Part shown: piece by piece, positions 43,666-62,038 of the stretch
Layout: each line of letters opens with the position of its first letter
Position numbering within the stretch: the first letter of the stretch is position 1
Source: Nitrospinia bacterium
GTDB taxonomy: Bacteria > Nitrospinota > Nitrospinia > Nitrospinales > JAJDAT01
DNA length: 64,000 bases
Assembly (NCBI GenBank): GCA_029261715.1
Contig: JAJDAT010000001.1
Span: forward strand, 186,001-250,000
Reading direction: 5' to 3'
The notes under the pieces: model-generated
Seen by the model: the letters and a program-made list of their open reading frames with translations, nothing else
Told to the model about the DNA's origin: nothing
The model's database searches: none
Program-made: the position numbers and the translations under genes

Positions 43666-44195
43666 TTCATTCCCCACTAAAATCTCATCCACTAAAGACA
43701 TCCCCAAATCGAACTAATTCAGGGTCCAGATTTATTCATTTAGTCAAAAATCAAAGCGCATTAATTTATAATTAGTAGTTAGTTTAAAGAATAAAATCTC
43801 TAAAAAACTAACCAGAAAGCATTCACAACTATGGTTACCTCCTAACCATGAACTTAGAATAGCTTTCCACTTCTTAAACTTCAACACATATTGTAAATAT
43901 AATTAAACAAAACCAAAAAAACCTTTTATTATCAATACTTTAAAAACTGTCACAATATGTTAACAAAGCTATTTTTTTAAACCCAAAGAGATTACATTAA
44001 ACCCTAATGAAAATTTAAAACTTTACAATTCTGTAACATAAGAATAAAATTAGAACTAACCAATACACCTCACGACTCTGTCTTATTTTGTTACACTTAA
44101 TATCAATCAATCATTTATAATGGCTTTCAATCTACAATATTACATCGCAATATTTATCGCCAGACTCGACGTATTCGATCTTCCGAAACAAAAAC
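43666..44195. other. Divergent intergenic region between two kinase genes
   Basis: 530 bp of AT-rich DNA without a gene. A TATAAT box at 44116-44121, 74 nt before the cNMP-kinase ATG, with TTACAC 19 nt upstream, is a weak promoter candidate for the plus-strand gene. Confidence 0.4.
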
Positions 44196-46265
44196 ATGGA
44201 AATTAAATCTGCTACAAAACTATTAAAGGAATTTTCAGTTCTTTCCAGTTTAGAAGAACTTCATATAGAAAAATTGTGTGAATCTTCCGGTTTTGTCTAT
44301 TTAAATGGAGGGGAACTTCTCTTTAAAGAAGGTGATCCAGGAAACGCTATGTTCATTGTTTTAGATGGATTGCTGGAAGTTTACACAAAAAACAAAATAA
44401 TTGCCGAACGCGGTCCATATAGTTTGATTGGTGAAATGGCTCTAATAAACTCCCAACCAAGATCCGCAAACATAAAAGCTTCCATCCCCACTAGCCTCAT
44501 AGAAATTTCGAAAGAAAACTTCAATAATTTTATAGCGCCGCATTCAAGTGTCATTCTAGAAATCATGAAAACCTTGTCGGAAAGAAGTCGTTCCGACCTC
44601 AATACTTTAGACCACGGCTATGGAGAGCTCCATAGGTCTCAAGAAAATTATGAAGACATTGTCAAATCCGTATCCGATATTATTTTAAGAGTTTCTTCAA
44701 ATGGCCTTATCACCTATTCAAATTCATCGGTTGGTTTATTAGGCTATACACCGAGCGATATAATAGGTCGTCCAATAAGCGATTTCATTGTCAATGAAAA
44801 CAAACAAGAAGTACAAGACCAGCTCATTACAAAACGCATTGGCGCCAGAGCGACAAAAGACCTCGAAGTTTGGCTTAAAGTTAACGATGACTTCTTATTT
44901 CCAGGCGGATTTAGAAAATTGCTATTTCTAGTGGACTCCACAGGTTTGTGGGACGTCTCAAATAAAGTCGTGAAGCAAAAAACCACGGAAAAAAAGTTTA
45001 TAGGATGTCAATTAGTAGCTAGAGAAATAACCTTAAGAAAAAAAGCCGAAGAAGAAATATTTGAGAACGCCCTTCATCAGGAAGAATTGGTAAGAATCAG
45101 AACCAGAGAATTAGAAAAAGCAAAAGAAGAAGCCGAAAAAGCCAACCAAGCTAAGTCTGAGTTTTTAGCTAGAATGAGCCACGAGCTGAGAACCCCAATG
45201 AACTCAATTTTGGGTTTCACTCAACTTTTGAGAGGAGAAGCAAAGAAAAATAACGACGACCCTCAACTTAAAGACCTCGATCAAATTCTAAACTCAGGCT
45301 ACCATTTATTGGACTTAATCAATGAGGTTTTGGATCTTTCAAAAGTTGAAACTGGCCATGTCAATATTTCTTTAGAACCGATCAATCTATTTGATCTAAA
45401 AAATGAAGTCTTTAATTTATCAAAACCCATCTCAATGGAAAACGGGGTCGAGTTATTAGACAATCCAACTGCCAATCCGTCCATCCATGTCTTGGCAGAC
45501 AGGATTCATTTAAAACAAGTTTTAATAAATTTAATTACCAACGCCATAAAATATAACCAAAAGCATGGACAAGTAACGATAGATTATTTTCTAAAAAATA
45601 AAGACCAAATTGTCATAAAAGTTTCAGATACTGGACGCGGCATTCCAAAAGATAAATATAAGGAAGTGTTTTTACCTTTTGAGAGATTGGGAATAGAATC
45701 GTCTGAAATTTCAGGCACCGGAATCGGCCTCACTATTTCAAAACGCCTAGTCGAATTAATGGACGGAGTTATTTATTTCGAAAGCGTTTTAGGAGAAGGA
45801 ACTAACTTTTTCGTTGAATTACCAGTGGCGCAAGAACAACCCACTGAATCAGATGACAAACCCGGCAATCCAGACTTCTCTGACCGCGAAGTAGGATCAA
45901 AAGAAAAAGTTATTTTGTACGTTGAAGATAACCTGGCAAACTTGAATTTGGTCAAACGGATACTTGCAAGTAGAGAAAGCACAACCTTTTTACCGGCGTT
46001 AACGGCTATAGAAGGTCTTAGGCTGGCTCACACACATCAACCAGACCTCATCTTAATGGACATCAACCTTCCTGGAATGAATGGCATTGAAGCTTTTAAA
46101 AAATTACAAGAGTCTGAAAAAACTAAAAACATACCAGTACTCGCCGTAAGCGCAGACGCTATGGAAGAAGACCAAGAAAAAGCCAAAGCGTTAGGATTCA
46201 AAAACTATATCACCAAACCCATAGACGTTCCCCTCTTTGTAGATTTAATAGAAAAATACCTTTAA
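44196..46265 (+). CDS. cNMP-binding-PAS-HisKA-HATPase-REC hybrid histidine kinase
   Basis: 689 residues. CRP-type cyclic-nucleotide-binding domain (about 10-130) with the phosphate-binding cassette [18 protein letters not shown] containing the Glu and Arg-Ser contacts for cyclic nucleotide phosphate. PAS domain (about 150-285) with an unusual segment on LEVWLKVN and [10 protein letters not shown], coiled coil, His[14 protein letters not shown], HATPase_c LITNAIKYN / DTGRGIP / GTGIGLT, and C-terminal REC ([23 protein letters not shown]). Soluble. A kinase whose activity is probably tuned by cAMP. Paralogue at 48251; the predicted adenylate cyclase is 15 kb away. Confidence 0.92.
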
Positions 46266-46295
46266 TAAAATCCTCCACATTTCCCATTAAAAAAA

Positions 46296-47414
46296 ATGAG
46301 TTCAAATTTGGATTGGATGAAGTCAATTGTTCAGTTTGTACCCATTGGGATTTTTCAAATTGATGGCGATGATCGTTATATATTTGTCAACCCCGCTTGG
46401 GAAAAAATTACTGGTAGGTCAATAGCTAAAACTTTAGGACAAGATTGGTGGGAAGTAATACACAAAGATGATAGGGAAAAAGTCTATTATGCATGGTCTG
46501 AAGCAGAATCACAAAACAAAGAACTAAACGTCGAATGTCAAATTACAATTTTAAATGGGTCTGAGAGATGGGTCCGGCTTCGAACTAATTTCCTTTTTAG
46601 CGATCAGGGAAAAACAGTCTTTGGAAGTTTAGAAGATATTACCAATAAAAAGAAGGCGGACCAAGAAAAAGAAAAGTTGATTCAAGAACTTAAAAACGCC
46701 ATTCTTTTATCAAACGAAGCTCAAGAAGAAAGCTCTGCAAAATCCGAGTTTATTTATAGGATGAGTCATGAGTTACGCACTCCCATGCATGCAATCTTGG
46801 GTTTTTCGCAATTATTGGAAATAAGTAAAAGTATCAAAGATAACTGCAACGATAGCGCAAGCGTCGTCGAAATTTTAAAAGCCGGCAAACATTTACTGTC
46901 TCTCATCAATAACGTTCTAGAATTATCGGAAACCGGGTCTAGAAAAATTAATTTTGAAGCGGTTTCTCTTTTTGAAACGGTTAAAAATAGTATGGTTTCT
47001 CGTCATCTCTTGGCAGATTCATTAAAAATAAATATTGTCAACAATATCCAAAATAATAATGAAACTAGAGTAACTGGGGATCCAAAATTAGTTCATCAAA
47101 TCGTAGACTCTTTATTAGCAAATTCCATAAAATATAATAAAGAGGGAGGAACCGTAAATATAAATATTGAGCCCGCCAAAGATAAAATGATTTGCCTATC
47201 CGTGCACAATACAGGAGACCCTATTCCCGAAGAAAACTTAGAAAAAATATTTGAAGCTTTCTATCGATTAGAGATTCATAAAAATCAGACAGACGGAATT
47301 GGACTAGGTCTCGCCCTAGCAAAAAAGTTTACGGAACTCATGGGGGGGACCATCTCAGCTCAAAACCAAGACGAAGGGTGCTGTTTCTATCTTACGTTAC
47401 CTAAAAGTGACTAA
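46296..47414 (+). CDS. PAS-HisKA-HATPase histidine kinase with altered G1 box
   Basis: 372 residues, 30 nt after the cNMP-kinase gene, so likely co-transcribed. PAS/PAC domain (about 10-125: FQIDGDDRYIFVNPAWEKITG, then the PAC end GSLEDIT), H-box [13 protein letters not shown]-box LLANSIKYN, G2 GIGLGLA. The G1 box reads NTGDPIP where DTGxGIP is standard: the Asp that binds the adenine amino group is Asn, and the second Gly is Pro. ATP binding may be weakened, so this could be a phosphatase-biased or regulatory kinase. No receiver domain of its own. Confidence 0.88.
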   Translation: MSSNLDWMKSIVQFVPIGIFQIDGDDRYIFVNPAWEKITGRSIAKTLGQDWWEVIHKDDREKVYYAWSEAESQNKELNVECQITILNGSERWVRLRTNFLFSDQGKTVFGSLEDITNKKKADQEKEKLIQELKNAILLSNEAQEESSAKSEFIYRMSHELRTPMHAILGFSQLLEISKSIKDNCNDSASVVEILKAGKHLLSLINNVLELSETGSRKINFEAVSLFETVKNSMVSRHLLADSLKINIVNNIQNNNETRVTGDPKLVHQIVDSLLANSIKYNKEGGTVNINIEPAKDKMICLSVHNTGDPIPEENLEKIFEAFYRLEIHKNQTDGIGLGLALAKKFTELMGGTISAQNQDEGCCFYLTLPKSD

Positions 47415-47651
47415 CCTTAAAAACGCCCAACGTCCAAATAAAGCCTTAACCTTTAAGTTGCCAATATTATAATTTTTAACCTTTCAATAAGTCCTAATAA
47501 TTTTTCCAATTCCTATCCATTGATATTGTTTCTCGAAAGTATCGATATCAAATTCCCATATGTATTTCCAGGTTGCTTTCAGTTATCTCCATCTCTTTAT
47601 ATAGGTTCCTCCAGCTCTATCGCTCAAACAATCCATTAGATTTAAGATCGG

Positions 47652-47810
47652 CTAAGTTTTCTTAAAAAATGCTACGGCTAAAGAAAACCAACCAATCATA
47701 AAAAACAACCCCCCTGGAGGAGTAATCGGTCAAAAATTTTTAGGACATCCCAAGACAAAGGCGTAAAACCTTCCTGAGAAAAGGAGAATAAATAAACTTT
47801 TACTTTTTTC
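47652..47810 (-). pseudogene. Relic of a DUF423 (YgdD-like) membrane protein
   Basis: In one frame on the minus strand: LFSGRFYAFVLG, then an in-frame TGA, then PITPPGGLFFMIGWFSLAVAFF and a stop. This follows the C-terminal pattern of DUF423 proteins (LFSGSLY ... ITPxGGxxFxxGWxxLA). The upstream two thirds of the gene are missing or beyond recognition and an internal stop interrupts the rest, so it is a decayed remnant. Confidence 0.6.
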
Positions 47811-47997
47811 CTTCTTTTATTTTATTTACCTTCTCCAACGCTAGTGAAATTCCTTTCATATCATAGTTCCAAATCATTTCATTTAAACCTTTATTCCGAA
47901 CACCAACTTTACATCTATTACTTATAACAGGCTTAACTTTTAACTTTAAATTTCCACATTCCGAATCAAATAAAACGTTGTTAAACATCAAATTCAT
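47800..47997 (-). CDS. Doubtful 65-residue frame
   Basis: Lys-rich frame beginning MNLMFNNVLFDSECGNLKL and ending in KVNKIKEGKK, overlapping the DUF423 relic by a few bases. No recognised domain and no clear ribosome-binding site. It has a plausible compact beta-then-helix pattern but could be chance in AT-rich DNA. The rest of the gap 47415-48250 shows no other gene. Confidence 0.25.
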   Translation of the reverse strand: MNLMFNNVLFDSECGNLKLKVKPVISNRCKVGVRNKGLNEMIWNYDMKGISLALEKVNKIKEGKK

Positions 47998-48250
47998 CTA
48001 AAAAAAATAAGTACCCACAATCTATATATTCCCTACCCGCACAGACCAAAAAGAATCATTTTTTTATTGCGCCCCTATTTACTTACCTCATCAGCATTTA
48101 TTAATATTTTGTTACGTAATTGTAAAAATATATTATTCACAAAAATGTTATTCTGATAATTAAATAAGAATTAAAAAACGGGCAAAACATTTGAGTTTAT
48201 TTACACATCAAAATAAAACTGCCCATTTATTAAAACTAAAAACCTAATTA

Positions 48251-50338
48251 ATGGATACCAATTCTGCAGTAACAATATTAAAAGACTTTTCAGTTCTTGG
48301 CGACTTAGACAAATATGCATTAAAAAAACTCTGCGATGTTTCCCCATTAGTTCAATTAAATAAAGAAGAACTTCTATTCAAAGAAGGCGACCCAGGTGAG
48401 ACAATGTACATTGTTTTAGAAGGGACGCTCGAAGTTTTCACAAACAACAAACTCATTGCCCAACGCGGCTGTTACAGCATGGTCGGGGAAATGGGGCTTA
48501 TAAATTCCCAACCTAGATCTGCAAATATAAAAGCTATCACCCCTTCCTGTTTATTAGAAATCTCTAAAGAAAGTTTCAAAACTTTTATAGCTCCCAATCC
48601 AGGTGTCGTTTTAGAAATCATGAAGACTCTGTCGGAAAGAAGCCGTTCAGATTTAAATATTCTAGATCAAAGCGTCAGCGACCTTCAGAAGTCTCAAGAA
48701 AACTTTGAAGACATTGTCAAATCAGTATCAGACATCATTATAAGAATTTCTCCGGATGAAATTATCACTTACGTAAACTCATCCATAAATATATTGGGCT
48801 ATATGCCTGAAGACGTTATAGGAAAGTCAATAAGAGCTTTTTTAGACGAAGAAAATAAAAAAGAAACGCTCGAAAAACTAATAACCCAACGCATTGGTTT
48901 AAGAGCAACCAAAGATTTAGAAGTCTGGTTTAAAGTTAACGAAGGTTTTTTATTTCCCGGCGGTTTTAAGAAACTGCTTTTTTTAGTGGACTCAACAGGC
49001 CTATGGGATGTTTCAAACGATATTGTAAAGCAGACATCTACAGAAAAAATATGCCTGGGATGCCAACTAATCGCTCGGGAAATCACCTTGAGAAAAAAAG
49101 CCGAGGACGCAGTTTTTGAAAACGCTATTTGGCTGGAAGAACTAGTTAATACCAGAACAAAAGAACTTGAAGAATCCAAGAAAGAAGCGATAGAAGCTAA
49201 GGAAACGGCTGAAAAAGCCAACATGGCTAAATCCAATTTTTTAACTAATATGAGTCACGAATTGCGAACTCCAATGAACTCTATTTTGGGCTTCTCGCAA
49301 ATAATGAAAAAAGAAGCAAAACAAAAAAACGATACTGACTACATATATAGTTTAGATCAAGTTCTAAAATCTGGTTACCACTTACTTGATTTGATTAATG
49401 AAGTATTAGATCTATCAAAAGTTGAATCTGGTAATTTAGAGTTTTCAATAGAAGCAGTTAATATTTCAGAGTTATTAAACGAAATTTTAGATTTATTGAA
49501 ACCAATAGCGGAAGAAAAAAAGATTCAACTCACAAAACTTACGATTGATCCCAACACCCACGTAAAAGCGGATAAAATCTATTTAAAACAGGTTTTGATA
49601 AATTTGTTCTCAAACGCCTTAAAATATAATCAAGAGAACGGAAAAGTAACCGCGAGGTGTTCTTTAGAGAAGAATGATAAAGTTCTCATAGAAATATCGG
49701 ATACTGGACGCGGCATTCCTGAAGACAAATTCCACGGCGTATTTATTCCTTTTGATAGGTTGGGACTAGAATCCGGGGAGATAGAGGGTACAGGCATTGG
49801 ACTAGCCATTACCAAACGCTTAGTTGAGCTTATGCAAGGCTCTATTTACTTTGAAAGTATTGTAGGCGAGGGAACTAGTTTTTTTGTGGAATTGGAAGCT
49901 TCTAAAGAAAAATCGACTTCTACAAAACAAACGACAAACATCCCAAGCTCAACAGAAACTCAATTGAATGTAGATGAACAAATAATCCTATATATTGAAG
50001 ATAATGAAGCAAATATAGAATTAGTTCGTAGAATATTAGGTTTTAAAAAAAATGTATTATACCTTTTTGCAGAAACGGCAAAAGAAGGTATTCAGTTAGC
50101 ATATGATCGGCAACCCCACCTTATTTTGATGGATATTAATCTTCCTGACATGGGGGGATGCGAAGCCTTCGAAAAATTACAAGAATCGGAAAAAACTAAA
50201 AACATTCCGGTATTAGCGCTCAGTGCAGACGCCATGAGTAAGGACATAAAAAACGCTATTAATTTGGGATTCAAAGACTATATCACCAAGCCAATAGACG
50301 TACCTCTTTTCATAGATTTAATCGATAGATATCTTTAA
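48251..50338 (+). CDS. cNMP-binding-PAS-HisKA-HATPase-REC hybrid histidine kinase, paralogue
   Basis: 695 residues, same architecture as the protein at 44196 and similar in every domain. Cyclic-nucleotide cassette [21 protein letters not shown] with EVWFKVN and [10 protein letters not shown]; a longer Lys/Glu/Ala coiled coil before the kinase; H-box [13 protein letters not shown]-box LFSNALKYN; DTGRGIP; GTGIGLA; REC with LYIEDN, LMDINLPDMGG and ITKPID. Probably a duplicate that has diverged in its signal linker. Expected to respond to the same cyclic nucleotide. Confidence 0.92.
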   Translation: MDTNSAVTILKDFSVLGDLDKYALKKLCDVSPLVQLNKEELLFKEGDPGETMYIVLEGTLEVFTNNKLIAQRGCYSMVGEMGLINSQPRSANIKAITPSCLLEISKESFKTFIAPNPGVVLEIMKTLSERSRSDLNILDQSVSDLQKSQENFEDIVKSVSDIIIRISPDEIITYVNSSINILGYMPEDVIGKSIRAFLDEENKKETLEKLITQRIGLRATKDLEVWFKVNEGFLFPGGFKKLLFLVDSTGLWDVSNDIVKQTSTEKICLGCQLIAREITLRKKAEDAVFENAIWLEELVNTRTKELEESKKEAIEAKETAEKANMAKSNFLTNMSHELRTPMNSILGFSQIMKKEAKQKNDTDYIYSLDQVLKSGYHLLDLINEVLDLSKVESGNLEFSIEAVNISELLNEILDLLKPIAEEKKIQLTKLTIDPNTHVKADKIYLKQVLINLFSNALKYNQENGKVTARCSLEKNDKVLIEISDTGRGIPEDKFHGVFIPFDRLGLESGEIEGTGIGLAITKRLVELMQGSIYFESIVGEGTSFFVELEASKEKSTSTKQTTNIPSSTETQLNVDEQIILYIEDNEANIELVRRILGFKKNVLYLFAETAKEGIQLAYDRQPHLILMDINLPDMGGCEAFEKLQESEKTKNIPVLALSADAMSKDIKNAINLGFKDYITKPIDVPLFIDLIDRYL

Positions 50339-50766
50339 AAAACTTACTGCAACTTTTAATTTTTACTGCCCTTAAAACCTTTAATTGATTAAAAAGACAA
50401 AACTGTTTTCTAGAAACGATTCGTCAAACCTAACTTTAATTCAATTCCCTCACTCTAACCTCTCATTTTTCAAAGCATTTCAAACCTATATTTTTTTACA
50501 AAATCTTAAGATTTTTTTCGTCTCACTACAATCATAACTATTGAAAAATAAAGGTTGTTCTTTACCTCAACAAAGAATATAATTAACTGTTAATTTAAGT
50601 GTCAGCATATAAAATTTCTTGGCATAAATTTAAGGTTAAGCGAAATTTATCGCTCTTGAAAAAACCTTTTCATTTCAAGCGTTCAGGTTTATTCTTTAAG
50701 CCATTATCCAAATCTGATCTCTCTGACTGAGCCTTTATCAAGCCTCTTTCTAACTGGACGCTATAC
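50339..50766. other. Intergenic region before the GGDEF-EAL gene
   Basis: 428 bp, AT-rich, no gene. A perfect palindrome AAAATCTTAAGATTTT followed by T residues at 50500-50518 may be a weak terminator for the upstream kinase gene. Confidence 0.4.
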
Positions 50767-52866
50767 ATGGATAAAATTTCCATAATGCAACATTTAAAAA
50801 AAGTCGATTTTTTAAAGGACCTTCCAGGTTTGGAAAGTTTGGCCGAAAATTGCCAAGCCACCAACCTCTTTCCTAACGACTTTCTATTTAAAGAAGGCGA
50901 AACAGGCGAATCCATGTTCATTATTACAGAGGGTTGTCTTGAGGTGATTAAAGAAAATCGCACCATCGCCTTACGCGCAGAAGGGGAATATATTGGGGAA
51001 ATGGCCCTCTTAGGTAATCAAACACGTTCCGCTTCCATAAAAGCAACTTCTAACGTTAAAGCGATAGAAATCAAAGAAAATGTTTTTAAAAGTTTTCTAA
51101 TATCCAATCCCGAAGCGTTACTCCCTTTAGTCAAAACTTTAGCCCTACGTTCAAAACAAGAGTTAGAAATTTTAGCTTCAGATAACCGCGAATTAGAAAC
51201 TCAAAAAAAGATTAATAAAAGATTCAATCGAATCTTAGACGATACCGTCAACGAAATTTATATATTAGATCCAGATACCTATAAAGTTATAAGAGCTAAT
51301 TTAAAAGCCTCTACCAACCTTGGTTATCCCTTAAACAAATTTGGAAATTTCTTTTTTAACGGCTTATTTTCCGATTTCACATGGGATGAGCTCAACGCTC
51401 ATATCCAAACACTTTTAAATAACGAGCAAGCCCAAGCTTCTTTTGCCGGACAACTCAAAAGAAAAGACGGCTCAACCTACCCTGTCGAAGTTCGTATTCA
51501 ATACTTAGATACTGAAGAGCCCGCGCAATTTTTCGCTATCGTAGAAGATATTACCGAGCGAAAAACAATGGAAGATCATATCAAACAACTCGCTTTTTAC
51601 GACACATTGACAGATCTTCCAAATCGTAATTTGCTAAAGGACCGGATGCAAGTCATGTTGGAGCACGCTAAGCGATATGACAAAAAATTCGCCGCCCTTT
51701 ATATGGACATGGATAACTTCAAAGCGGTTAACGACGCTTTAGGTCACGATGCTGGCGATCAATTTTTAAAATCGGTTACAAAACGCCTAAAAGAATGTCT
51801 TAGAAAAGAAGATACTCTCGGTCGTATGAGTGGCGATGAGTTCATTATTTTACTTCCAAATCTTAATGATGAAAAAGACGCCTCAAATTTGGCTCAAAAA
51901 ATAAACTCGATAATGGAATCTCCTTTCTTGATCGCAAATAAAGAAATTTTTTCAAATTTTAGCATTGGGGTTTCTTACTATCCAGACGACGGAAATGATA
52001 TCGCCACTCTTCTCAAAAATGCCGATATCGCCATGTATCGCGCCAAAGAAGTGGGAGGACACACCTATCAGTTGTTCACCGAATCGATGAACGAAAAGAT
52101 CAATAAACGTATGACCATGGAGCAAAACCTCCGCCAAGCTCTGGATAATGACGAATTGAAATTGTATTACCAGCCTAAAGTCGATGAAAAGGGAACGCTT
52201 TCAAGTTTAGAAGCGCTCATTCGCTGGCCCCAGCCGGAAGGAAAAATGATATCGCCCGGAGTGTTCATTCCCATTGCGGAAGAAAGCCGAATCATAGGTC
52301 TTATAGGCAAATGGGTGATTATAGAAGCCTGCAAACAAATTCAAGAATGGAAAACTAAATTTGGACGTTCCATAAAAGTTGCCGTAAACGTTTCGGGCAA
52401 ACAATTCGAACAAACTGATTTAGTCAAAGACATAAAAGAAGTGCTAGAAACAGCGAAAATAGACCCTTCGCTTTTAGAAGTGGAAGTTACAGAAACCGCT
52501 ATGATGAGAGATATTGACTCTGTTATAAGCGTTCTCGATAAACTAAAAGAATTTGGAGTTCAATCGTCCATAGACGATTTTGGTTCGGGTTATACGTCCT
52601 TAGGATATTTAAAGAAATTTCCGGTTCACTCTTTAAAAATAGACCAATCGTTTATTCACGGTTTTAAAGATAAAAGCAATCAAGCCATCATCGAAGGAAT
52701 TATCACTATTTGTAAAGTAATGGGCTTGGAAGTGGTTGCCGAAGGGGTCGAAACCGAAGAACAACTAGAATACTTAAAAACATTAAAGTGCGATATATAT
52801 CAAGGTTACTTATTTTATAAACCGCTACCAGCGGATGAAGTTGCGAAACAGTTTTTTCAGAATTAA
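50767..52866 (+). CDS. cNMP-binding-PAS-GGDEF-EAL cyclic-di-GMP protein
   Basis: 699 residues. CRP-type cNMP domain (about 8-125; cassette IGEMALLGNQTRSASIKA), PAS (about 150-265), GGDEF domain (about 275-435) with active site SGDEF in place of GGDEF and an RxxD inhibitory site (RKED) five residues upstream, then an EAL domain (about 445-695) with LEALIRW, VNVSGKQF, VEVTETAM, IDDFGSGYTSL, LKID and VAEGVETEEQ all intact. The EAL side looks fully competent as phosphodiesterase; SGDEF variants can still be cyclases. A protein linking cyclic nucleotide input to c-di-GMP turnover. Confidence 0.94.
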   Translation: MDKISIMQHLKKVDFLKDLPGLESLAENCQATNLFPNDFLFKEGETGESMFIITEGCLEVIKENRTIALRAEGEYIGEMALLGNQTRSASIKATSNVKAIEIKENVFKSFLISNPEALLPLVKTLALRSKQELEILASDNRELETQKKINKRFNRILDDTVNEIYILDPDTYKVIRANLKASTNLGYPLNKFGNFFFNGLFSDFTWDELNAHIQTLLNNEQAQASFAGQLKRKDGSTYPVEVRIQYLDTEEPAQFFAIVEDITERKTMEDHIKQLAFYDTLTDLPNRNLLKDRMQVMLEHAKRYDKKFAALYMDMDNFKAVNDALGHDAGDQFLKSVTKRLKECLRKEDTLGRMSGDEFIILLPNLNDEKDASNLAQKINSIMESPFLIANKEIFSNFSIGVSYYPDDGNDIATLLKNADIAMYRAKEVGGHTYQLFTESMNEKINKRMTMEQNLRQALDNDELKLYYQPKVDEKGTLSSLEALIRWPQPEGKMISPGVFIPIAEESRIIGLIGKWVIIEACKQIQEWKTKFGRSIKVAVNVSGKQFEQTDLVKDIKEVLETAKIDPSLLEVEVTETAMMRDIDSVISVLDKLKEFGVQSSIDDFGSGYTSLGYLKKFPVHSLKIDQSFIHGFKDKSNQAIIEGIITICKVMGLEVVAEGVETEEQLEYLKTLKCDIYQGYLFYKPLPADEVAKQFFQN

Positions 52867-53042
52867 TCGAAATTATTACGGGGACGATTAAATACCTGAC
52901 ATGAAGCAATCAAAACACATCCATTTAAAGCCTTGTTTCAGTATGATGTGTCTAGACTGATCTCATCTATTTATGTTTCGGGTTAATAATAAGTTACTTT
53001 TAATTTTTTTGTAAATGAAATCCCTATTTTTATAAGGGGGAA

Positions 53043-54821
53043 ATGGCAATGTTTAATTTACTTCGTCTTTCGATGTGGGGAATAGCTTCCCTACTATTAG
53101 CGCTTTCGCCAATCAGCGCAGCCGCTCAAGAACAAGTCAGTCGTGGAGAATTTGTCAAAATTTTCTCGGATTCTCAACCGACCAATCCATACCTGCCTAA
53201 AAACCATAAACAACTTTCTAAAGATCAACTTTATTCCGAAACGGTTAAAACGCTAAATGAACGCGGCATTAAAGTATTAAACGGTAAAAACTCAGGCGAG
53301 CCCATGAGCAACTTGGAGTTCGTCCGCGTATCCTACGCCCTAACCGGCGCGCCATTAGGAAAATCGTTATACGAACAAAAACGATACTTAAAAGAAAAAG
53401 GACTTTTAGAAACCGCGGACATAGGTCTAACCACCGGGTTGGACGGACAAGCCTTTCAATTTCATAAAGGCGATTCCGCTCCCTATAAAGTTCAACTAGC
53501 AAGCCCCGTATATTTAAACGATAAAGTTGAAACCGAAGACGAGGCCAATATTTCCTTCACCTTTGATGACCAAAGCACCCTTACCTTAGGCGAAGACGCA
53601 CAAGTAAGAATCACTAAACACGTATACAACCCAGATAACGGGCTCCGCCAAACCGTCGTCAACGTTACCTCCGGCATGGTTCGTTTTGTGATCTCAAAAG
53701 CTAAAGGCAAAGGATCAATGTTTAAGGTAGTCACTCCAACGGCGACTGCGGGAGTACTAGGGACCGAATTTGTTACCGTTGTAGAATCGGACGGTCAAAC
53801 TCAATTTGTAGGTATCGAAAATCAAATTGAAGTCACTCCAATACTGCCAGATGGTACCGAAGGCGTTAAACAAATCGTAGCCGCAGGTCAGATGCGGTCA
53901 ATCGCAAAAAACGGAGTAGCAACGGCAGTAACTCAAGCTCCTCCAGGATTGATAACTTCTATGCAAGCTAAAACCTCAACGCCTCAAAAAGTTAATCCAA
54001 ATCGACCTGTAACTCCGCAAAAAGCGCAATCCGCAGCAAAAAGTAATTGGATCACACAAGCGGCATTAACGAACATTAACCCAGTCAATCAAGGCGGCGC
54101 AAATGGGTTAGGCGCCACTAAGTCTGCAGCGGCAAAAACAAAAGTAAATCCAAGTAAAGGGCAAAATAAAGGCAAAGCTAAGATTGCAAGCCTTGGTGGA
54201 AAACCTGGAAAAGGCGCAAACAAAGGAGCCGCTAAAGCAGCGAAGGGAGCGGCTAAAAATGCCGCTAAAGGAGCCGCAAAAGCAGTCGCTAAAAAAACCG
54301 CAAAAGGCATGGCTAAAACGGCGGCTAAATCTTCCACAAAGAAAGCGACAAAAAAAGTAGCTAAAAAAGCCACAAAAAATGCGATTAAGGTAGCCGCTGC
54401 ATCGGCAGCAAAAGCGTCATCTACTGAATCGGCTCAAGAAGCCGCCAAATCAGTCGCTACTCAAGTTGCGCGAGAACAAGTCACAACCATCGCGGCAGAA
54501 GAAGCCCAAGCGGCGTCAACGACAGCAATCCTGGCTTCTAATGGAGCGGGCAAATCCGAATTTGCCCCTGGACTGTCAAGTAACCCAGGTAACTCCGGAA
54601 ACGCTCCCGGACAATCAGGTAGTTCTCCAGGTAACTCCGGAAATGCTCCCGGACAATCAGGCAGTTCACCTGGAAACTCTGGCAGTTCACCTGGAAACTC
54701 TGGAAGCTCACCTGGAAACTCAGGCAGTTCTCCAGGAAACTCTGGTGGTTCAAGTGATTCAGGTGGATCCAATGGTAACTCTGGTGGGAATGGTAACTCT
54801 GGAGGTAAAGGGAAGAAATAA
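53043..54821 (+). CDS. FecR-domain exported protein with Lys/Ala-rich and SPGNSG-repeat tail
   Basis: 592 residues, GGGGG 4-5 nt before the ATG. Signal peptide 1-28 (SAAAQE cleavage region), an N-terminal conserved region (about 30-130), and a FecR domain (about 135-280) with EANISFTFDDQSTLTLGE, VNVTSGMVRFVI and TPTATAGVLGTEF. After residue 330 the sequence changes to low complexity: Lys/Ala repeats of the histone-H1/AlgP kind (KGAAKNAAKGAAK), an acidic/Ala spacer, then seven heptads of the SSPGNSG type and a Gly/Asn end. Exported to the periplasm or surface. A close paralogue follows at 55028. The tail may bind polyanions such as LPS or DNA; inference. Confidence 0.87.
   Translation: MAMFNLLRLSMWGIASLLLALSPISAAAQEQVSRGEFVKIFSDSQPTNPYLPKNHKQLSKDQLYSETVKTLNERGIKVLNGKNSGEPMSNLEFVRVSYALTGAPLGKSLYEQKRYLKEKGLLETADIGLTTGLDGQAFQFHKGDSAPYKVQLASPVYLNDKVETEDEANISFTFDDQSTLTLGEDAQVRITKHVYNPDNGLRQTVVNVTSGMVRFVISKAKGKGSMFKVVTPTATAGVLGTEFVTVVESDGQTQFVGIENQIEVTPILPDGTEGVKQIVAAGQMRSIAKNGVATAVTQAPPGLITSMQAKTSTPQKVNPNRPVTPQKAQSAAKSNWITQAALTNINPVNQGGANGLGATKSAAAKTKVNPSKGQNKGKAKIASLGGKPGKGANKGAAKAAKGAAKNAAKGAAKAVAKKTAKGMAKTAAKSSTKKATKKVAKKATKNAIKVAAASAAKASSTESAQEAAKSVATQVAREQVTTIAAEEAQAASTTAILASNGAGKSEFAPGLSSNPGNSGNAPGQSGSSPGNSGNAPGQSGSSPGNSGSSPGNSGSSPGNSGSSPGNSGGSSDSGGSNGNSGGNGNSGGKGKK
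54576..54746 (+). repeat. 21-nt in-frame tandem repeats (SSPGNSG) in the first FecR gene
   Basis: Eight heptad-scale units encoding NPGNSG/NAPGQSG/SSPGNSG. Adjacent units are nearly identical in DNA (for example AGTTCACCTGGAAACTCTGG), so slippage can change their number without breaking the frame. Confidence 0.85.
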
Positions 54822-54917
54822 TTCCACCTTCAAACTATTAAGACATATGGTAATATCTATGTATTCATATTCCCGAAATTTTAAGTAGTTTTATTTTACA
54901 TAACACGTACGTAATAT

Positions 54918-54953
54918 CCTTCAGGCAAAAGCTTTTTTGCCTGAAGGCTTTTT
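54918..54953 (+). terminator. Rho-independent terminator of the first FecR gene
   Basis: 13-bp perfect stem CCTTCAGGCAAAA / TTTTGCCTGAAGG with a 4-nt loop, followed by CTTTTTT. Strong, well formed, about 100 nt after the stop. Confidence 0.88.
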
Positions 54954-55027
54954 TCCAAAAACGACCGATTACAAATTTTATTTCCAAAGTAAATGAAGTT
55001 TCTCTAAGATGGGGAGAGAGCTAAAAA

Positions 55028-56785
55028 ATGGCGACTCGCAGATTGATTAGACAATTTACACTAGCAATTATTTTTCTTTTAATAGCTTTTACGCCACCGT
55101 CGGCAATGTCTCAAGATCAAATCAATCGTGGACAGTTTGTCAAAATCTTTTCGGATTCTCAGCCAACAAATCCGTTCCTTCCCAAAAACCATAAAAAACT
55201 CTCCAAAGACCAGCTTTATTCCCAAACAGTCAAAAAACTAAACGAACGCGGCATCAAGGTACTAAACAATAAAAAAGCCGACGAGCCCATGAGCAATTTG
55301 GAATTCGTCCGCGTATCTTATGCTTTATCCGGCGCTCCTTTAGGAAAATCTTTGTACGAGCAAAAACGATACTTAAAAGAAAAAGGACTTTTAGAAACAG
55401 CCGATATTGGTTTAACTACCGGTTTAGACGGCCAAGCCTTTTTATTCCATAAAGGCGACCAGGCGGCATATAAAGTTCAGTTAGCCAGCCCTGTTTATTT
55501 AAACGACAAAGTCGAAACCGAAGAAGAAGCCAATATTTCCTTCACCTTCGACGATCAAAGTACTCTCACATTAGGCGAAGACGCAGAAGTAAGAATTACC
55601 AAGCACGTTTACAATCCCGATAGCGGACTCCGCCAAACTGTCGTCAACGTAACGTCAGGTATGGTGCGTTTTGTCGTTTCCAAAGCCAAAGGTAAAGGAT
55701 CGATGTTTAAGGTAGTCACTCCAACGGCGACTGCGGGAGTGCTCGGAACAGAATTTGTTACCGTTGTAGAGCCAAACGGTCAAACTCAATTTGTCGGTAT
55801 TGAAAACCAAATTGAAGTCACTCCAATTCTACCAGACGGTACCGAGGGCGTTAAACAAATCGTTGCCGCCGGTCAAATGCGATCTATCGCTCAAAATGGA
55901 GTAGCGACCCAGGTAACACAAGCGCCCCCAGGACTGATAAATAATTTTAAAGCTCAAACTTCGACACCGCAAAAAGTAAATCCAAACCAACCGGTAACGC
56001 CACAAAAAGCTCAATCTGCCGCAAAAAGTGCCTGGATTACGCAAGCGGCTTTAACAAATGTTGACGCTAACTCGACCCAAGCTTCAGCTGGTGGATTAGG
56101 AGCAACTAAATCCGCAACGGCAAAAGCCAAAGTAAAACCAGGAAAAGGTCCAGCTAAAACCGCGGGTCTTGTTAAACCTGGGAAGGGTAAAAGCAAAATA
56201 GCAGGTCTTGGTAAACCAGGAAAAGGTCCAGGTAAAGCCGCAGGTCTTGGTAAGCCAGAAAAGGGTCCAGGCAAAATCGCAGGTCTTGGTAACCCAGGAA
56301 AAGGAGCCGCTAAAGGCGCGGCAAAAAATGCCGCGAAAAGCGCTGCGAAAAATGCGGCAAAAGCCGTCGCTAAAAGAACCGCCAAAGGAGTAGCCAAAAC
56401 GGCGGCTAAATCAGCTGCAAAAAGTTCAGCCCAAAAAGCAACGGATAGAATAGCTAAAAAAGCATCTAAAAGCGCCATTAAAGCAGCAGCAAAAGCAGCC
56501 GTAGCAAGCGCAACGGCAGAAGCCGCGCAAGAAGCTGCGACCGAAGTGGCTTCTCAAGTCGCTAGAGAACAAGTTACTGTCATCGCTCAAGCTGTAGCTG
56601 CAGAAAATTCCAATGCTAATGGAAATAGCTCTAGCAGTAACGGTAATAGCTCTAGCAGTAATGGAAACAGTAGTAGCAGCAGTAGCAGCAGCAGTAGCAG
56701 TAGCAGCAGTAGCAGCAGCAGTAGCAGCAGCAGTAGCAGCAGCAGTAATGGAAATTCTAATGGGAATAAAAATGGAAATAGCTAA
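55028..56785 (+). CDS. FecR-domain exported protein, paralogue with poly-Ser tail
   Basis: 585 residues; signal peptide 1-29, then a region almost identical to the first FecR protein through about residue 335, including FDDQSTLTLGEDAEVRITK and TATAGVLGTEFVTVVE. The tail differs: four 13-residue KPGKGPGKxAGLG units, Lys/Ala H1-like repeats, an Ala/Glu helix, and a run of 26 serines within an NGNS-rich end. Thus the FecR part is held constant while the tail diverges by repeat expansion. Own promoter likely, as a strong terminator precedes it. No sigma-factor or TonB receptor gene nearby, so it is not a classic FecIR regulator. Confidence 0.87.
   Translation: MATRRLIRQFTLAIIFLLIAFTPPSAMSQDQINRGQFVKIFSDSQPTNPFLPKNHKKLSKDQLYSQTVKKLNERGIKVLNNKKADEPMSNLEFVRVSYALSGAPLGKSLYEQKRYLKEKGLLETADIGLTTGLDGQAFLFHKGDQAAYKVQLASPVYLNDKVETEEEANISFTFDDQSTLTLGEDAEVRITKHVYNPDSGLRQTVVNVTSGMVRFVVSKAKGKGSMFKVVTPTATAGVLGTEFVTVVEPNGQTQFVGIENQIEVTPILPDGTEGVKQIVAAGQMRSIAQNGVATQVTQAPPGLINNFKAQTSTPQKVNPNQPVTPQKAQSAAKSAWITQAALTNVDANSTQASAGGLGATKSATAKAKVKPGKGPAKTAGLVKPGKGKSKIAGLGKPGKGPGKAAGLGKPEKGPGKIAGLGNPGKGAAKGAAKNAAKSAAKNAAKAVAKRTAKGVAKTAAKSAAKSSAQKATDRIAKKASKSAIKAAAKAAVASATAEAAQEAATEVASQVAREQVTVIAQAVAAENSNANGNSSSSNGNSSSSNGNSSSSSSSSSSSSSSSSSSSSSSSSSSNGNSNGNKNGNS
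56135..56290 (+). repeat. 39-nt tandem repeats (13-residue Lys/Gly/Pro units)
   Basis: Four in-frame units starting KPGKG or KPEKG and ending AGL(G/V), encoding a strongly basic segment of the second FecR protein. Confidence 0.85.
56669..56746 (+). repeat. AGC/AGT trinucleotide tract encoding 26 serines
   Basis: Pure run of AGC and AGT codons. In-frame length variation by slippage is expected. The opposite strand shows open frames that are artefacts of this composition. Confidence 0.9.
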
Positions 56786-56899
56786 AATCAAGCCATTGAA
56801 TTTCACCCAAAATAGTTTAAATTTTAATAAACTTATGGTAATATCAACGTACTCATAAAATTTAAGTAATTTCGCTTCAACCTAGCGCTTAAGTTACAC

Positions 56900-56928
56900 C
56901 TTTTAGATGAATAGCTTTCGTCTAAAAG
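56900..56928 (+). terminator. Hairpin after the second FecR gene
   Basis: 12-bp stem CTTTTAGATGAA / TTCGTCTAAAAG (one G-T pair) with loop TAGCT, 18 nt before the next ATG. The T tract is weak (CTTTACC), so it may be a leaky terminator or a 5' control element for the TPR-porin gene. Confidence 0.55.
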
Positions 56929-56946
56929 CTTTACCAAATCGAACGG

Positions 56947-58611
56947 ATGCGATTTTTATCACTAAAACTAGCGTTAAAGCTTATTCCGCTCTCTCTAATC
57001 CTTTCGATTTTTCTAGTTCATCCCCACTCTGCTATCGCAAATACATCCTCTCCCTTAACAAATCTTAAAAACACATTTAAAAATTTCTTTTCTAAACCAA
57101 TAAAGCAAATCGCTGTTTATTTAGTAGCTCAAAATAACGCCGCCCAAAAACCAGTTGTAGAACCTACACAAAAAATAGAACAAAAAACTGAACTGGCAGA
57201 ACAGCAGCCTGAAGGTGATTTTGAAACCGGATTAAAACTTTTTCAAGACGACAAATACGCTAAAGCTCTTTTAGAATTTCAAAAGATTATTGATTCAGAC
57301 ACCAACAATGCAGAAGCCACTTACTTTTTAGGCCTAACCTATTTCAAACTGGAAAATCACGATAAAGCAATTCCCTTATTTGAAAAAACGCTTGAATTGG
57401 ATCCTACTTTTAATGAGTCTTATTTAAGTTTAGGAATCTCCTATTACAAAACTAAATCATACGACTTAGCGTTAAACGCACTGGATAAAGCAATAGCAGC
57501 TAATCCCAAAGACGCCTCGTCTCATTTTTTTAAAGGACTGACCCTACATGCTCTAGAGAAATATCAAGACTCTCTCTTCTCATTCAATCAGGCAAAAACT
57601 TTAGACTCTGAGTTCAGACAACTCGCTCTTTTTTACAAAGCCTTAGGTTATTACAAATTAGGCCAAGTTGATTACGCCAAAGAATTATTTAAACGCACCG
57701 CCGGTTTTGATCCAAAGTCGGACACGGCCAAAGATGCTAATCAATTTATCGATATCATCAAACAGCAACAAGCAAGCGGAGCTAATAAAGACTGGTACGC
57801 TAACTTAAGCGCAGGATATGAATGGAACGACAATATCTCTCGTTCCGAACAAGATATTGTGAGTAATATAGCGGATAGAATTTATATTTTCCAAGCAAGC
57901 GGAAATTATACTTTTTTTAAAAGGAAAAGCTTTGAATTAGAGGCCGGATACAATTTTTATCAAAGTATCTATGACGAAGCTAAAGAATTTAACTATCAAG
58001 CTCACACCGGAAACCTTTCCGCTTCCTACGGATTAAAGGATTGGGATTTGCGTCTGGATTCTTCTTACACATACAGTACCTTGGACAAATTATCTTTTCT
58101 AGGTATCGAAACGCTTTCTCCTGCAATCGGACATTCTTTTCATCCCAAGCAATATATAAACGCTAGCTATAGTTTTCAGCGTAAAAAGTTTTTCACCGAT
58201 TCAAATCGCGATGGCATGAACCACTCAATCGGTTTTCTAAATTTTATATTTTTTTGGGACAATAAGGCATTTTGGTCGCAAGGTTATCGCTTTTCGGATG
58301 AAAACACTCGCGACTCTCAATTCGATTACGCAAACCACCATACTGACACAACCATAAAAATCCCCGGCCCTTTTGAAAGCGCTATTCGGTTTTACTTTGC
58401 GTTTTTTTTACGGGACTATAAAAATATTACGGAAAGTATCAACAGCGAACGGAAAGACGACAGACAGACCTTTCAAGTTAGCTACTATCAACCACTTTAT
58501 AAAAAACTTTATTTGGATGCTAACTATAGACACATTGAAGCCAAATCAAATGTATCGTCTGTAGACTTTAAGGAAAATTCTGGTTTTGTAAGCCTGGGAA
58601 TTAATTTTTAG
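56947..58611 (+). CDS. TPR protein with C-terminal outer-membrane beta-barrel
   Basis: 554 residues. Signal peptide at about 1-32 (HSAIANT), a linker, five to six TPR units (about 75-275; AEATYFLGLTYFKLENHDKAI and similar), then about 265 residues of alternating strands with many aromatic ends (YANLSAGYEWNDNIS, FELEAGYNFY) and a terminal Phe in VSLGINF, the BAM recognition end of outer-membrane proteins. The barrel likely sits in the outer membrane with TPRs in the periplasm. Position after two FecR genes suggests it scaffolds or secretes them; inference. Confidence 0.85.
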   Translation: MRFLSLKLALKLIPLSLILSIFLVHPHSAIANTSSPLTNLKNTFKNFFSKPIKQIAVYLVAQNNAAQKPVVEPTQKIEQKTELAEQQPEGDFETGLKLFQDDKYAKALLEFQKIIDSDTNNAEATYFLGLTYFKLENHDKAIPLFEKTLELDPTFNESYLSLGISYYKTKSYDLALNALDKAIAANPKDASSHFFKGLTLHALEKYQDSLFSFNQAKTLDSEFRQLALFYKALGYYKLGQVDYAKELFKRTAGFDPKSDTAKDANQFIDIIKQQQASGANKDWYANLSAGYEWNDNISRSEQDIVSNIADRIYIFQASGNYTFFKRKSFELEAGYNFYQSIYDEAKEFNYQAHTGNLSASYGLKDWDLRLDSSYTYSTLDKLSFLGIETLSPAIGHSFHPKQYINASYSFQRKKFFTDSNRDGMNHSIGFLNFIFFWDNKAFWSQGYRFSDENTRDSQFDYANHHTDTTIKIPGPFESAIRFYFAFFLRDYKNITESINSERKDDRQTFQVSYYQPLYKKLYLDANYRHIEAKSNVSSVDFKENSGFVSLGINF

Positions 58612-58637
58612 GTTTGTTTTAATTTGGTGGGATTTAA

Positions 58638-59159
58638 CTAGTTGTTAGAGTGGAAACCTTGAAGCATTTTATAAGTGAATTCGACGATATGTTTGAGACG
58701 TTTTACTGACTTTTTTTGATTTTTTAATTCTTCATTATCTTGATCCAAAGTTTTTAAATCAGTTCGCGATCGATTGGAAAGAGTTTTTAATAAACTGAAG
58801 ACAACTTCCTTCTGTGGAGTCAAGAATTTCTCAAACTGTGAACGCTGCATTTCTAAAAAGCAAGAATCGACAACGGCTTTAGCCGAAGCGGAACGAGGCT
58901 TGGTTTCTATAAGAGCCATCTCTCCAATATATTCGCCCTGTCCTCTATTAGCGATGGTTTTATTTTGCACATAAACCAATAATTCACCCGAAAGAATAAA
59001 ATACATGCAATCTCCTTCGCTTCCCTCTTCAAATATAATGTCATTAGCTTTTACTTCTTTTATTTCGCACTCGGAAGCCAGATCCGCTAAAACATCGTCG
59101 GGCAATAAACTCAACAAATCGACTTCTTTCAGCATTTGGAAAATTCCGTCCGAATTCAT
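58638..59159 (-). CDS. Stand-alone cNMP-binding domain protein
   Basis: 173 residues consisting of one CRP-type cyclic-nucleotide-binding domain (about 10-130) and a short C-terminal helix (KNQKKSVKRLKHIVEFTYK). Cassette IGEMALIETKPRSASAKA keeps the Glu and Arg-Ser expected for cAMP/cGMP contact. There is no HTH, so it is not a CRP regulator. Divergent from the CHASE2 cyclase gene (96-bp gap), which makes it a likely direct sensor or buffer of the nucleotide made there. Confidence 0.9.
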   Translation of the reverse strand: MNSDGIFQMLKEVDLLSLLPDDVLADLASECEIKEVKANDIIFEEGSEGDCMYFILSGELLVYVQNKTIANRGQGEYIGEMALIETKPRSASAKAVVDSCFLEMQRSQFEKFLTPQKEVVFSLLKTLSNRSRTDLKTLDQDNEELKNQKKSVKRLKHIVEFTYKMLQGFHSNN

Positions 59160-59255
59160 TCAAAACTCCCTGATTGGATTACACGCTGGTTTTCATTATA
59201 AAGAGTCTAATGAATAATATCGCCACAGTCAATTTATCGGAACTCTTGGCATAAC

Positions 59256-61535
59256 ATGGAATCTTTCAATAAAAAAACGTGTTGGGTATTATCTGCAATC
59301 ATCATCGTTCTTTCCTTATTAACTTCTAAGATTGATCCAACAATACTGCACACTTTTGAACTTATTTTTCAAGACGCTCACTTTAAATGGCGTGGTCCCA
59401 TCTCCCCCGGACCAGAAGTCGTCATCGCCGCTATTGACGAAAAAAGCATTGACGACCTGGGACGCTGGCCCTGGTCCAGAAAAACCATGGCAAACCTGGT
59501 CGACAAATTAGTCGAATCAGAAGCTAAGATAATTGGATTTGACGTAGTCTTCTCTTCTCCCGAAAACTTTCCGCAAAAAAAGCTAATAGAAAATCTGGAA
59601 AACAAACTTAAAAAAAATAAAATCGACTTTCAAAATATCGAAGAACAACTACAAGAAATCAAAAACGAACCACACCCAGACGAACTATTTGCAAAAGCGC
59701 TGCGAACTTCAAATAGAACGGTTACAGGTTATTTTCTCAGTCATAACCAGGCAGAATCAAAATTAATCGACGAAGAAGTGCAAAAGCAAAGTTTAAAAAA
59801 CATTAAACCCTCGCGATTCAGAGGATTCTTAAAATCAAATGCCGAGTTGGACTTAAACACCCTGCCCTTTCGAACCGTTTACGGCATCGAGGCAAATATA
59901 GAAGCGCTTTCAAAAAAATATAAAAAAGCGGGTTTTCTAAGTTTTGATGTAGAGCCAGATGGCACAATTCGCCAACTACCGCTTGTCGTTCGTTCTCACA
60001 GAAAATTAAAAGGAAAGTCTCTATTCTTTCCTCCTTTTTCCATGAGAATTTTGGAAAACTATTTGGACGGAACCATGCTGTTTAAGGTCAACCCTATGGG
60101 TGTGGAAAAGGTTTTAATTGACGCGGAAGATCCCATCGTAATACCGGTTAACGACCAGGGAGCGTTAAGCGTTAATTATTTAGGACCACAAAGAACATTT
60201 CCTCGCTATTCCATATCAGAAATTTTGAATGACTCTAATAGCGCCCTATCCTCACAGCTAAAAGATAAAATTGTTTTGATTGGAGCGACTGCAAAAGGAC
60301 TTTTAGATATAAGAAAGACTCCATTCGACCCGGTCATGCCAGGGATTGAAGTACACGCTACTATCATAGACAACATACTTCGGCGAAACTTTATTTACGA
60401 ACCCGATTGGGCAGAGCTTGTTGAGATATTATTCCTTATCCTCATTGGGATTGTCTCTACATTAGTCTATATCAATATCAAACCCGCTCAAGCTCCATTA
60501 TTTTGGATAGGTATTTCAGCATCCTTATTTGGAATCAATCATTGGTTTTTCACAAATAAAGGATTCTGGCTTTCAAATTTATACCCACAGTTGGAACATC
60601 TTTTAATTTCCGCTTCTTTGATGGTTTACCGTTACACATCCGATGAAAAACAGAAGCAATATATACGCGGTATTTTCGGCCAATACGTCACTCCAAAAGT
60701 AATCGACAACCTGATAGAAAATCCCGACGATCTAAAATTAGGAGGAGAAGAAAGGGAATTAACAGCTTACTTCTCCGATATCGCAGGTTTCTCAACCATC
60801 GCGGAAAAACTGACGCCCACGCAATTTGTTTCTTATTTAAACGAATATCTTTCTGAGATGACAGAGATCTTGCTTAAGCACGATGGAACTTTGGATAAAT
60901 ATGACGGCGACGCCATCAAAGCGTTCTTTGGAGCCCCGGTCTATTTTGAAAACCACGCCAAGCGTGCCTGTTGGGTAGGTATTGAAATGCAAGAAAGGTT
61001 AAAGGAGTTGCGCGTTGAATGGGACAAAGTAGGAAAACCGGAATTTCAGACACGTATCGGTATCAATACTGGAGACATGGTTATTGGTAACTTCGGTTCC
61101 GAAAAAAGGATGAACTACGGCATGAACGGAGACTCCGTAAATCTTGCCGCACGATTAGAAGGCGTCAACAAACAATACCGAACGCAAAGCATCATCAGCC
61201 AATCGACTTATGAGCAAGCAAAAGATTTTATAGAAGTTCGCGAGTTAGACCGCATTCAAGTTGTAGGACGAAAAATCCCTGTGGTCATTTACGAATTGAT
61301 AGCGAAAAAGGGAGAACTCAGCGAAAACTTTAAAAAGATATTGCCCGTTTTTAATCAAGGATTAGAAAGTTATAAAAATCAACAGTGGCAGGAAGCGATG
61401 GATCACTTCAATCAAGTTTTGGAGATAGACCCTGATGACGGTCCCGCATTAACTTACTTGGAACGTTGCCTCCACTTTGCCAACGATCCACCGTCAAAAG
61501 ATTGGAACGGAGTCTTCACCCTAACTAAGAAATAA
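59256..61535 (+). CDS. CHASE2-domain class III adenylate cyclase with C-terminal TPR
   Basis: 759 residues. N-terminal membrane anchor, CHASE2 extracytoplasmic domain (about 28-385; DAHFKWRGP, AAIDEKSIDDLGRWPW, GFDVVFSSP, GATAKGLLDIRKTPFDPVMPGIEVHA in pieces), three membrane helices (about 388-470), a short IFGQYVTPKVI linker, and a cyclase domain (about 505-690). Metal Asp residues lie in YFSDIAGFS and KYDGDAIKAFFGAP; the Lys in LDKYDGD and the Asp in GDSVNLAARLE are the adenine-specifying pair; Asn/Arg in NLAARL complete the site. A TPR unit closes the protein. Predicted product cAMP. Confidence 0.93.
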   Translation: MESFNKKTCWVLSAIIIVLSLLTSKIDPTILHTFELIFQDAHFKWRGPISPGPEVVIAAIDEKSIDDLGRWPWSRKTMANLVDKLVESEAKIIGFDVVFSSPENFPQKKLIENLENKLKKNKIDFQNIEEQLQEIKNEPHPDELFAKALRTSNRTVTGYFLSHNQAESKLIDEEVQKQSLKNIKPSRFRGFLKSNAELDLNTLPFRTVYGIEANIEALSKKYKKAGFLSFDVEPDGTIRQLPLVVRSHRKLKGKSLFFPPFSMRILENYLDGTMLFKVNPMGVEKVLIDAEDPIVIPVNDQGALSVNYLGPQRTFPRYSISEILNDSNSALSSQLKDKIVLIGATAKGLLDIRKTPFDPVMPGIEVHATIIDNILRRNFIYEPDWAELVEILFLILIGIVSTLVYINIKPAQAPLFWIGISASLFGINHWFFTNKGFWLSNLYPQLEHLLISASLMVYRYTSDEKQKQYIRGIFGQYVTPKVIDNLIENPDDLKLGGEERELTAYFSDIAGFSTIAEKLTPTQFVSYLNEYLSEMTEILLKHDGTLDKYDGDAIKAFFGAPVYFENHAKRACWVGIEMQERLKELRVEWDKVGKPEFQTRIGINTGDMVIGNFGSEKRMNYGMNGDSVNLAARLEGVNKQYRTQSIISQSTYEQAKDFIEVRELDRIQVVGRKIPVVIYELIAKKGELSENFKKILPVFNQGLESYKNQQWQEAMDHFNQVLEIDPDDGPALTYLERCLHFANDPPSKDWNGVFTLTKK

Positions 61536-61999: not shown

Positions 62000-62029
62000 G
62001 TGGTCGCCCTTCGAGAACCTCAGGGTGAC
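62000..62029 (-). repeat. Family B repeat, right inverted copy
   Basis: GTGGTCGCCCTTCGAGAACC then TCAGGGTGAC; 29 of 30 nt match the reverse complement of the left copies. A GTG in it extends the next frame artificially. Confidence 0.9.
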
Positions 62030-62038
62030 ATTTTATAT

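Follow-up and report, generated by a model that had tools for sequence, protein, structure and literature searches.

Gene content of the locus

A group of genes in the genome of a Nitrospinia bacterium, in which a CHASE2-class III nucleotide cyclase is accompanied by four proteins with cyclic nucleotide-binding (cNMP) domains, was analysed for its domains, conservation and possible function. The genes lie in a stretch of 64,000 nucleotides (positions 186,001 to 250,000 of contig JAJDAT010000001.1), which is called the window here and belongs to contig C1 of a 5.33 Mb assembly of 52 contigs. Gene calls were made from open reading frames and Pfam searches, and window coordinates are used throughout. 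An original prediction, made from the letters of the window and a list of open reading frames, had proposed a local circuit of one cyclase and four cNMP proteins within 17 kb, with two cNMP domains on hybrid histidine kinases, one on GGDEF-EAL, one alone beside the cyclase and none on a helix-turn-helix (HTH); Pfam analysis recovered all five genes where it had placed them, with these domains, and detected no HTH in the four window cNMP proteins.

The cyclase gene (59256..61535, + strand) encodes a CHASE2 domain (PF05226, E 6.6e-62), a class III cyclase domain (PF00211, E 7.7e-23) and TPR repeats. It is separated by a divergent intergenic region of 96 bp (59160..59255), presumably a promoter region, from the gene of a stand-alone cNMP protein of 173 aa (58638..59159, - strand), and this divergent arrangement of cNMP gene and cyclase was found again at sister loci. 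The other three cNMP genes are on the + strand and encode hybrid histidine kinase 1 (44196..46265), a cNMP-PAS-HisKA-HATPase-REC protein with an intact H-box (SHELRTP, aa 328) and REC motif (LMDINLPG, aa 620), hybrid histidine kinase 2 (48251..50338), which has the same architecture and 63% identity to kinase 1 over the full length, and a cNMP-PAS-GGDEF-EAL protein (50767..52866), in which SGDEF, an RxxD I-site and the EAL motifs are intact by sequence.

Three further + strand genes inside this span were passed over by the original prediction, although they are part of the conserved unit, namely those of FecR-domain protein 1 (53043..54821), FecR-domain protein 2 (55028..56785; 76% identity to protein 1 in alignment) and a TPR protein ending in a predicted 14-strand outer-membrane beta-barrel (56947..58611; Pfam and structure model). 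Both FecR proteins have apparent signal peptides and are presumably secreted. FecR was their sole Pfam match, so that no anti-sigma domain was seen in them, and the scanned genes of the locus did not include a sigma factor. Behind the conserved N-terminal domain, the proteins encoded at 53043-56785 carry long C-terminal Lys/Ala-rich helical repeats and Gly/Ser/Asn-rich low-complexity tails, which are highly variable between relatives.

The remaining genes are more peripheral. A PAS-HisKA-HATPase kinase without cNMP or REC domain (46296..47414, + strand) starts 30 bp past kinase 1; a PAS histidine kinase also follows the cNMP kinase in G007, but otherwise this gene is not part of the conserved unit. 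Two tandem REC-HisKA-REC hybrid kinases (40041-43707, - strand) lie just beyond the studied span, and a 506-aa membrane-like protein at 62000-63520 had no Pfam or NCBIfam match.

Cyclase and cNMP domains

All catalytic residues are present in the window cyclase, including the metal-binding Asp508 and Asp552 together with Asn629 and Arg633. The original prediction had described its specificity residues as adenine-type; this holds for the first purine-specificity site, which is Lys548, but the second is Gly622 in place of Thr/Asp. Orthologues of the cyclase (about 46-56% identical) form a single clade with a Shimodaira-Hasegawa-like approximate likelihood ratio (SH-aLRT) support of 100, throughout which the metal and transition-state residues are invariant. 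Among 29 clade members, the first specificity position is Lys in 20 and Arg in 9, and the second is Gly in 27; the two Thr cases (G025:C86 and G046:C170) are fragments with paralogue-like neighbourhoods and were counted as paralogues. All but one of the paralogous CHASE2 cyclases of these genomes carry Lys and Thr.

The closest natural solved enzyme having Gly at the second site is Cya2 of Synechocystis, a CHASE2 guanylate cyclase with Glu and Gly that is GTP-specific (PMC5995499, PDB 2w01), and its E488K variant, with Lys and Gly, is ATP-specific (PMC5995499). The window cyclase shares with Cya2 the CHASE2 and class III cyclase domains and the Gly, but differs in its C-terminal TPR repeats and in the first site, which is Lys and not Glu. 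Since Lys and Gly are combined as in Cya2 E488K, the enzyme would make a purine cyclic nucleotide, most likely cyclic AMP (cAMP). A different product, cGMP or a pyrimidine cyclic nucleotide, that would likewise be sensed by the cNMP domains is suggested by the clade-wide loss of Thr/Asp at the second site, by the Arg that replaces Lys in 9 of 29 members, by the guanylate cyclase activity of Cya2 itself and by the cNMP protein Bd1971, which binds both cAMP and cGMP (PMC6717892); given the Lys of the window enzyme and the ATP specificity of the E488K variant, we regard this as quite unlikely.

PF00027 and a phosphate-binding cassette with its Glu and Arg were found in all four window cNMP proteins, and the two residues are also retained in the cNMP domains of sister loci. 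As members of this family, the window domains would be expected to bind cyclic nucleotide. The motif GEMxL...RSA, earlier taken as a special shared cassette, proved to be the generic phosphate-binding cassette present in most cNMP domains of the genome: among 30 other cNMP domains extracted from the genome, the G-E...R core is kept in about 28 and the exact motif is matched in about 11. The four domains had also been called closely similar, which is true of the two kinases (64% identity between their cNMP domains) but not of the remaining pairs, which are 36-43% identical; the best paralogues outside the locus are at least as close to these domains (44-53%). In a cNMP tree the four window domains occupy three separate positions: the kinases pair together (99/85), the GGDEF-EAL protein clusters with the proteins encoded next to the cyclase at four sister loci (100/95), and the lone cNMP protein is on a long branch with no firm placement. 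An origin of all four by local amplification of a single cNMP domain was rejected, the kinase pair being the only recent duplicate. The genome contains 43 cNMP domains in total, and under their random placement the occurrence of four within 14.6 kb has a P of about 0.009.

The lone cNMP protein is probably a truncated cNMP-PAS-GGDEF-EAL protein, because its last 56 residues best match the linker of such proteins and its gene holds the divergent slot that they fill at most sister loci. It ends 26 bp from the barrel gene, leaving no space for a gene remnant. Derivation from a lost cNMP-LuxR regulator was considered less likely, as the tail fits the cNMP-PAS-GGDEF-EAL linkers better. Further clusters of small stand-alone cNMP proteins and of double-cNMP proteins (~780 aa) were noticed elsewhere in this genome (G000:C26:2675-17809 and G000:C49:407344-408352), and comparable small-cNMP clusters occur in many relatives.

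Cyclase and cNMP domains are also the ingredients of Pycsar-type defence, in which a cyclic pyrimidine from the cyclase triggers a cNMP-domain effector, and the PADLOC models PycC and PycTIR did match the cyclase and cNMP domains here. These matches did not extend beyond the shared domains, a cNMP-domain killer effector of the TIR or transmembrane kind was not found, and the cyclase bears a CHASE2 receptor; a defence role was therefore rejected as extremely improbable.

Conserved adjacency and exchange of receivers

The neighbourhoods of the orthologous cyclases were compared with those of the paralogous CHASE2 cyclases of the same genomes, counting cNMP genes within 10 kb and taking the expectation from each genome's own cNMP density. 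A cNMP gene was found at 28 of 29 clade loci against 2.5 expected, these loci representing three families of one order so that the counts are not independent and a p-value covering the whole class is not given. The one locus without it, G016:C93, is only a fragment of a contig; G016:C16 bears the other end of such a cyclase together with a cNMP gene, so that the association effectively holds at 28 of 28 loci. At 27 of these 28 no other gene lies between the cyclase and the cNMP gene. The paralogous cyclases had a cNMP gene within 10 kb at 3 of 23 loci (G038:C207 among them) against 2.3 expected. Co-occurrence beyond expectation in related genomes, on which the original prediction had staked its circuit, was thus found for the clade and not for the paralogues. 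Separately, a 796-aa protein with two cNMP-plus-kinase-like units was noted near a paralogous CHASE2 cyclase in G017:C1 and G011:C34.

Four types of receiver adjoin the clade cyclases: GGDEF-EAL, kinase, LuxR-HTH and CRP-HTH. The commonest, at most loci, is cNMP-PAS-GGDEF-EAL. Receivers of the cNMP-PAS-HisKA type, with or without REC, occur in the window and in G007, G005 and G021. A cNMP-LuxR/GerE HTH receiver of ~225 aa was confirmed by Pfam in one case and read from sequence in the others; this unusual architecture is encoded alongside FecR/barrel genes at L096:9786-10463 (- strand), with similar genes in G026, G036, G041, G046, G049 and G054. CRP-type HTH receivers of ~228 aa were recognised from sequence at seven loci, and six of them cluster with the one HTH_Crp_2 protein of the studied genome, which is encoded on another contig than the window. 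These seven (G047:C90, G050:C39, G044:C71, G033:C1, G022:C1:151552, G042:C20 and G031:C1) belong to a CRP-type subtype of the cyclase clade in which the receiver gene is convergent; within the stretch read, five of them have a FecR gene and none has a barrel or GGDEF-EAL gene. The proposal that the nucleotide acts other than through CRP consequently describes the window well but is not a rule, since the seven CRP-type loci and the cNMP-LuxR loci pair the same clade with HTH regulators.

Cyclase and cNMP gene stay adjacent even where effector type and flanking housekeeping genes vary. Housekeeping flanks common to relatives are missing from the window, which indicates that the module, not the region, is conserved. 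The comparison suggests that, across the order, the cyclase was kept while its receiver was swapped repeatedly.

It could be argued that these genes are simply co-regulated neighbours, whose effectors follow a global nucleotide pool fed by all seven class III cyclases of the genome, and which lie together because they descend from one ancestral gene block. In favour of this view are the size of the repertoire (seven class III cyclases, six CHASE2 domains and the 43 cNMP domains), the presence of cNMP-GGDEF-EAL proteins elsewhere and the confinement of the adjacency to a single order. It accounts poorly for adjacency that survives effector replacement amid differing flanking genes, and for paralogous CHASE2 cyclases of the same genomes that are not enriched for cNMP neighbours. 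On balance we consider it fairly unlikely.

Proposed circuit and its relation to known systems

We consider it probable that the locus is a trans-envelope, local cyclic-nucleotide circuit with interchangeable cNMP effectors. The transmembrane cyclase would sense a periplasmic state through CHASE2, as expected from that family, and produce a purine cyclic nucleotide, likely cAMP, which the receivers encoded alongside would bind through their CRP-type cNMP domains. In the window, ligand binding may alter c-di-GMP turnover by the cNMP-PAS-GGDEF-EAL protein and histidine phosphorelay through the two hybrid kinases, while the stand-alone protein, as a probably truncated derivative, could serve to bind the nucleotide, to buffer it or to pair with full-length proteins. 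The circuit idea of the original prediction is to this extent partly supported.

Several observations weigh against this reading. The Gly at the second specificity site and the Arg for Lys in nine relatives make the assignment of the cyclase product less certain, and the cNMP domains of the two kinases have no close orthologue at sister loci. All search-returned relative genomes with this cyclase clade fall in the same order; a contig scan for close cyclase relatives gave six loci, of which five are titled Nitrospina/Nitrospinaceae and one, titled Nitrospirota, lies on a contig equal in length to G027:C104 of a same-order genome. No neighbouring cNMP gene was seen for three CHASE2 cyclases that belong to a different family of the class. 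Finally, some cNMP-PAS-GGDEF-EAL proteins are encoded at a distance from this cyclase or in genomes that lack it, and six other class III cyclases are present in the genome, so that the circuit need not be insulated.

The FecR proteins and the TPR-barrel would most likely form the envelope side, where they would either feed a sensory signal into CHASE2 or make up a surface product that is itself controlled. Members of a FecR family that shares a conserved N-terminal region occur at 24 of 28 loci, several of the remainder being cut off by contig edges, and the TPR-barrel family occurs at 17 of 28. The model of FecR protein 1 has a predicted local distance difference test (pLDDT) score of 76, and its FecR part matches a FecR-type anti-sigma protein (BDI_1681) and PupR cell-surface signalling domains with Foldseek E-values of about 1e-5. 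The barrel model (14 strands, pLDDT 85) has BcsC, CymA and PelB among its top fold matches. With the exporters BcsC and PelB it shares periplasmic TPR repeats and an outer-membrane barrel; however, the TM-score to BcsC is 0.36 at 9% identity, and no polysaccharide synthase was seen in the locus. An exporter function was not assigned from so weak a match.

One conjecture is that the outer-membrane TPR-barrel and the secreted FecR proteins gate the CHASE2 cyclase, whose nucleotide would then act on whichever exchangeable receiver is encoded with it, be this a c-di-GMP enzyme, a hybrid kinase or a regulator of LuxR or CRP type. Such a relay would amount to FecR surface signalling with a cyclase replacing the sigma factor. 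The likeness lies in the FecR fold of a periplasmic signalling domain with an outer-membrane barrel nearby; as a difference, the window FecR proteins look secreted, and the barrel is fused to TPR repeats and is not a TonB receptor. This form of the proposal is possible but doubtful. The same components may instead serve an independent surface or export function that is regulated by the circuit, for example via c-di-GMP, and does not feed the cyclase, an explanation that concerns the envelope part only and is compatible with the cytoplasmic circuit. The resemblance of the barrel to exporters, the surface-protein relatives of the FecR region (LipL45 and Lsa33) and the low-complexity tails speak for it. 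FecR genes, however, adjoin many paralogous CHASE2 cyclases that have neither such a barrel nor a cNMP gene, which favours a functional link between FecR and CHASE2, and the independent function, although plausible, falls somewhat short of being probable.

Bacterial cAMP is usually viewed as a diffusible global signal that is read chiefly by CRP, and the signals of CHASE2 are poorly known. A receiver that is kept beside its cyclase while its output changes is a natural experiment in which local and insulated signalling by cyclic nucleotides can be studied. The locus also provides a candidate direct cAMP-to-c-di-GMP link in Nitrospinota, a phylum noted for its marine nitrite oxidisers, and a testable candidate role for CHASE2 in FecR-linked envelope sensing. 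In the open-access literature, whose coverage is incomplete, no description was found of this locus, of a CHASE2 cyclase with FecR or with cNMP hybrid kinases beside it, or of the receiver exchange.

The domains all belong to known kinds, and a direct coupling of cAMP to c-di-GMP has been described before (PMC8846402). In Bd1971 a cNMP domain switches an EAL enzyme (PMC6717892); the window protein likewise has an N-terminal cNMP domain with an intact cassette fused to an EAL enzyme, but it has PAS and an apparently intact GGDEF between the two and shares its locus with a presumed cyclase. Lcd1 of Leptospira and Tlr0485 of Thermosynechococcus are c-di-GMP enzymes under direct cAMP control (PMC8846402), as is proposed for the window, with sensing by GAF domains there and by cNMP domains here. 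CRP-type transcription factors, which share the cNMP domain, adjoin the same cyclase clade at the seven sister loci, whereas the window proteins bear kinase or GGDEF-EAL outputs, or none.

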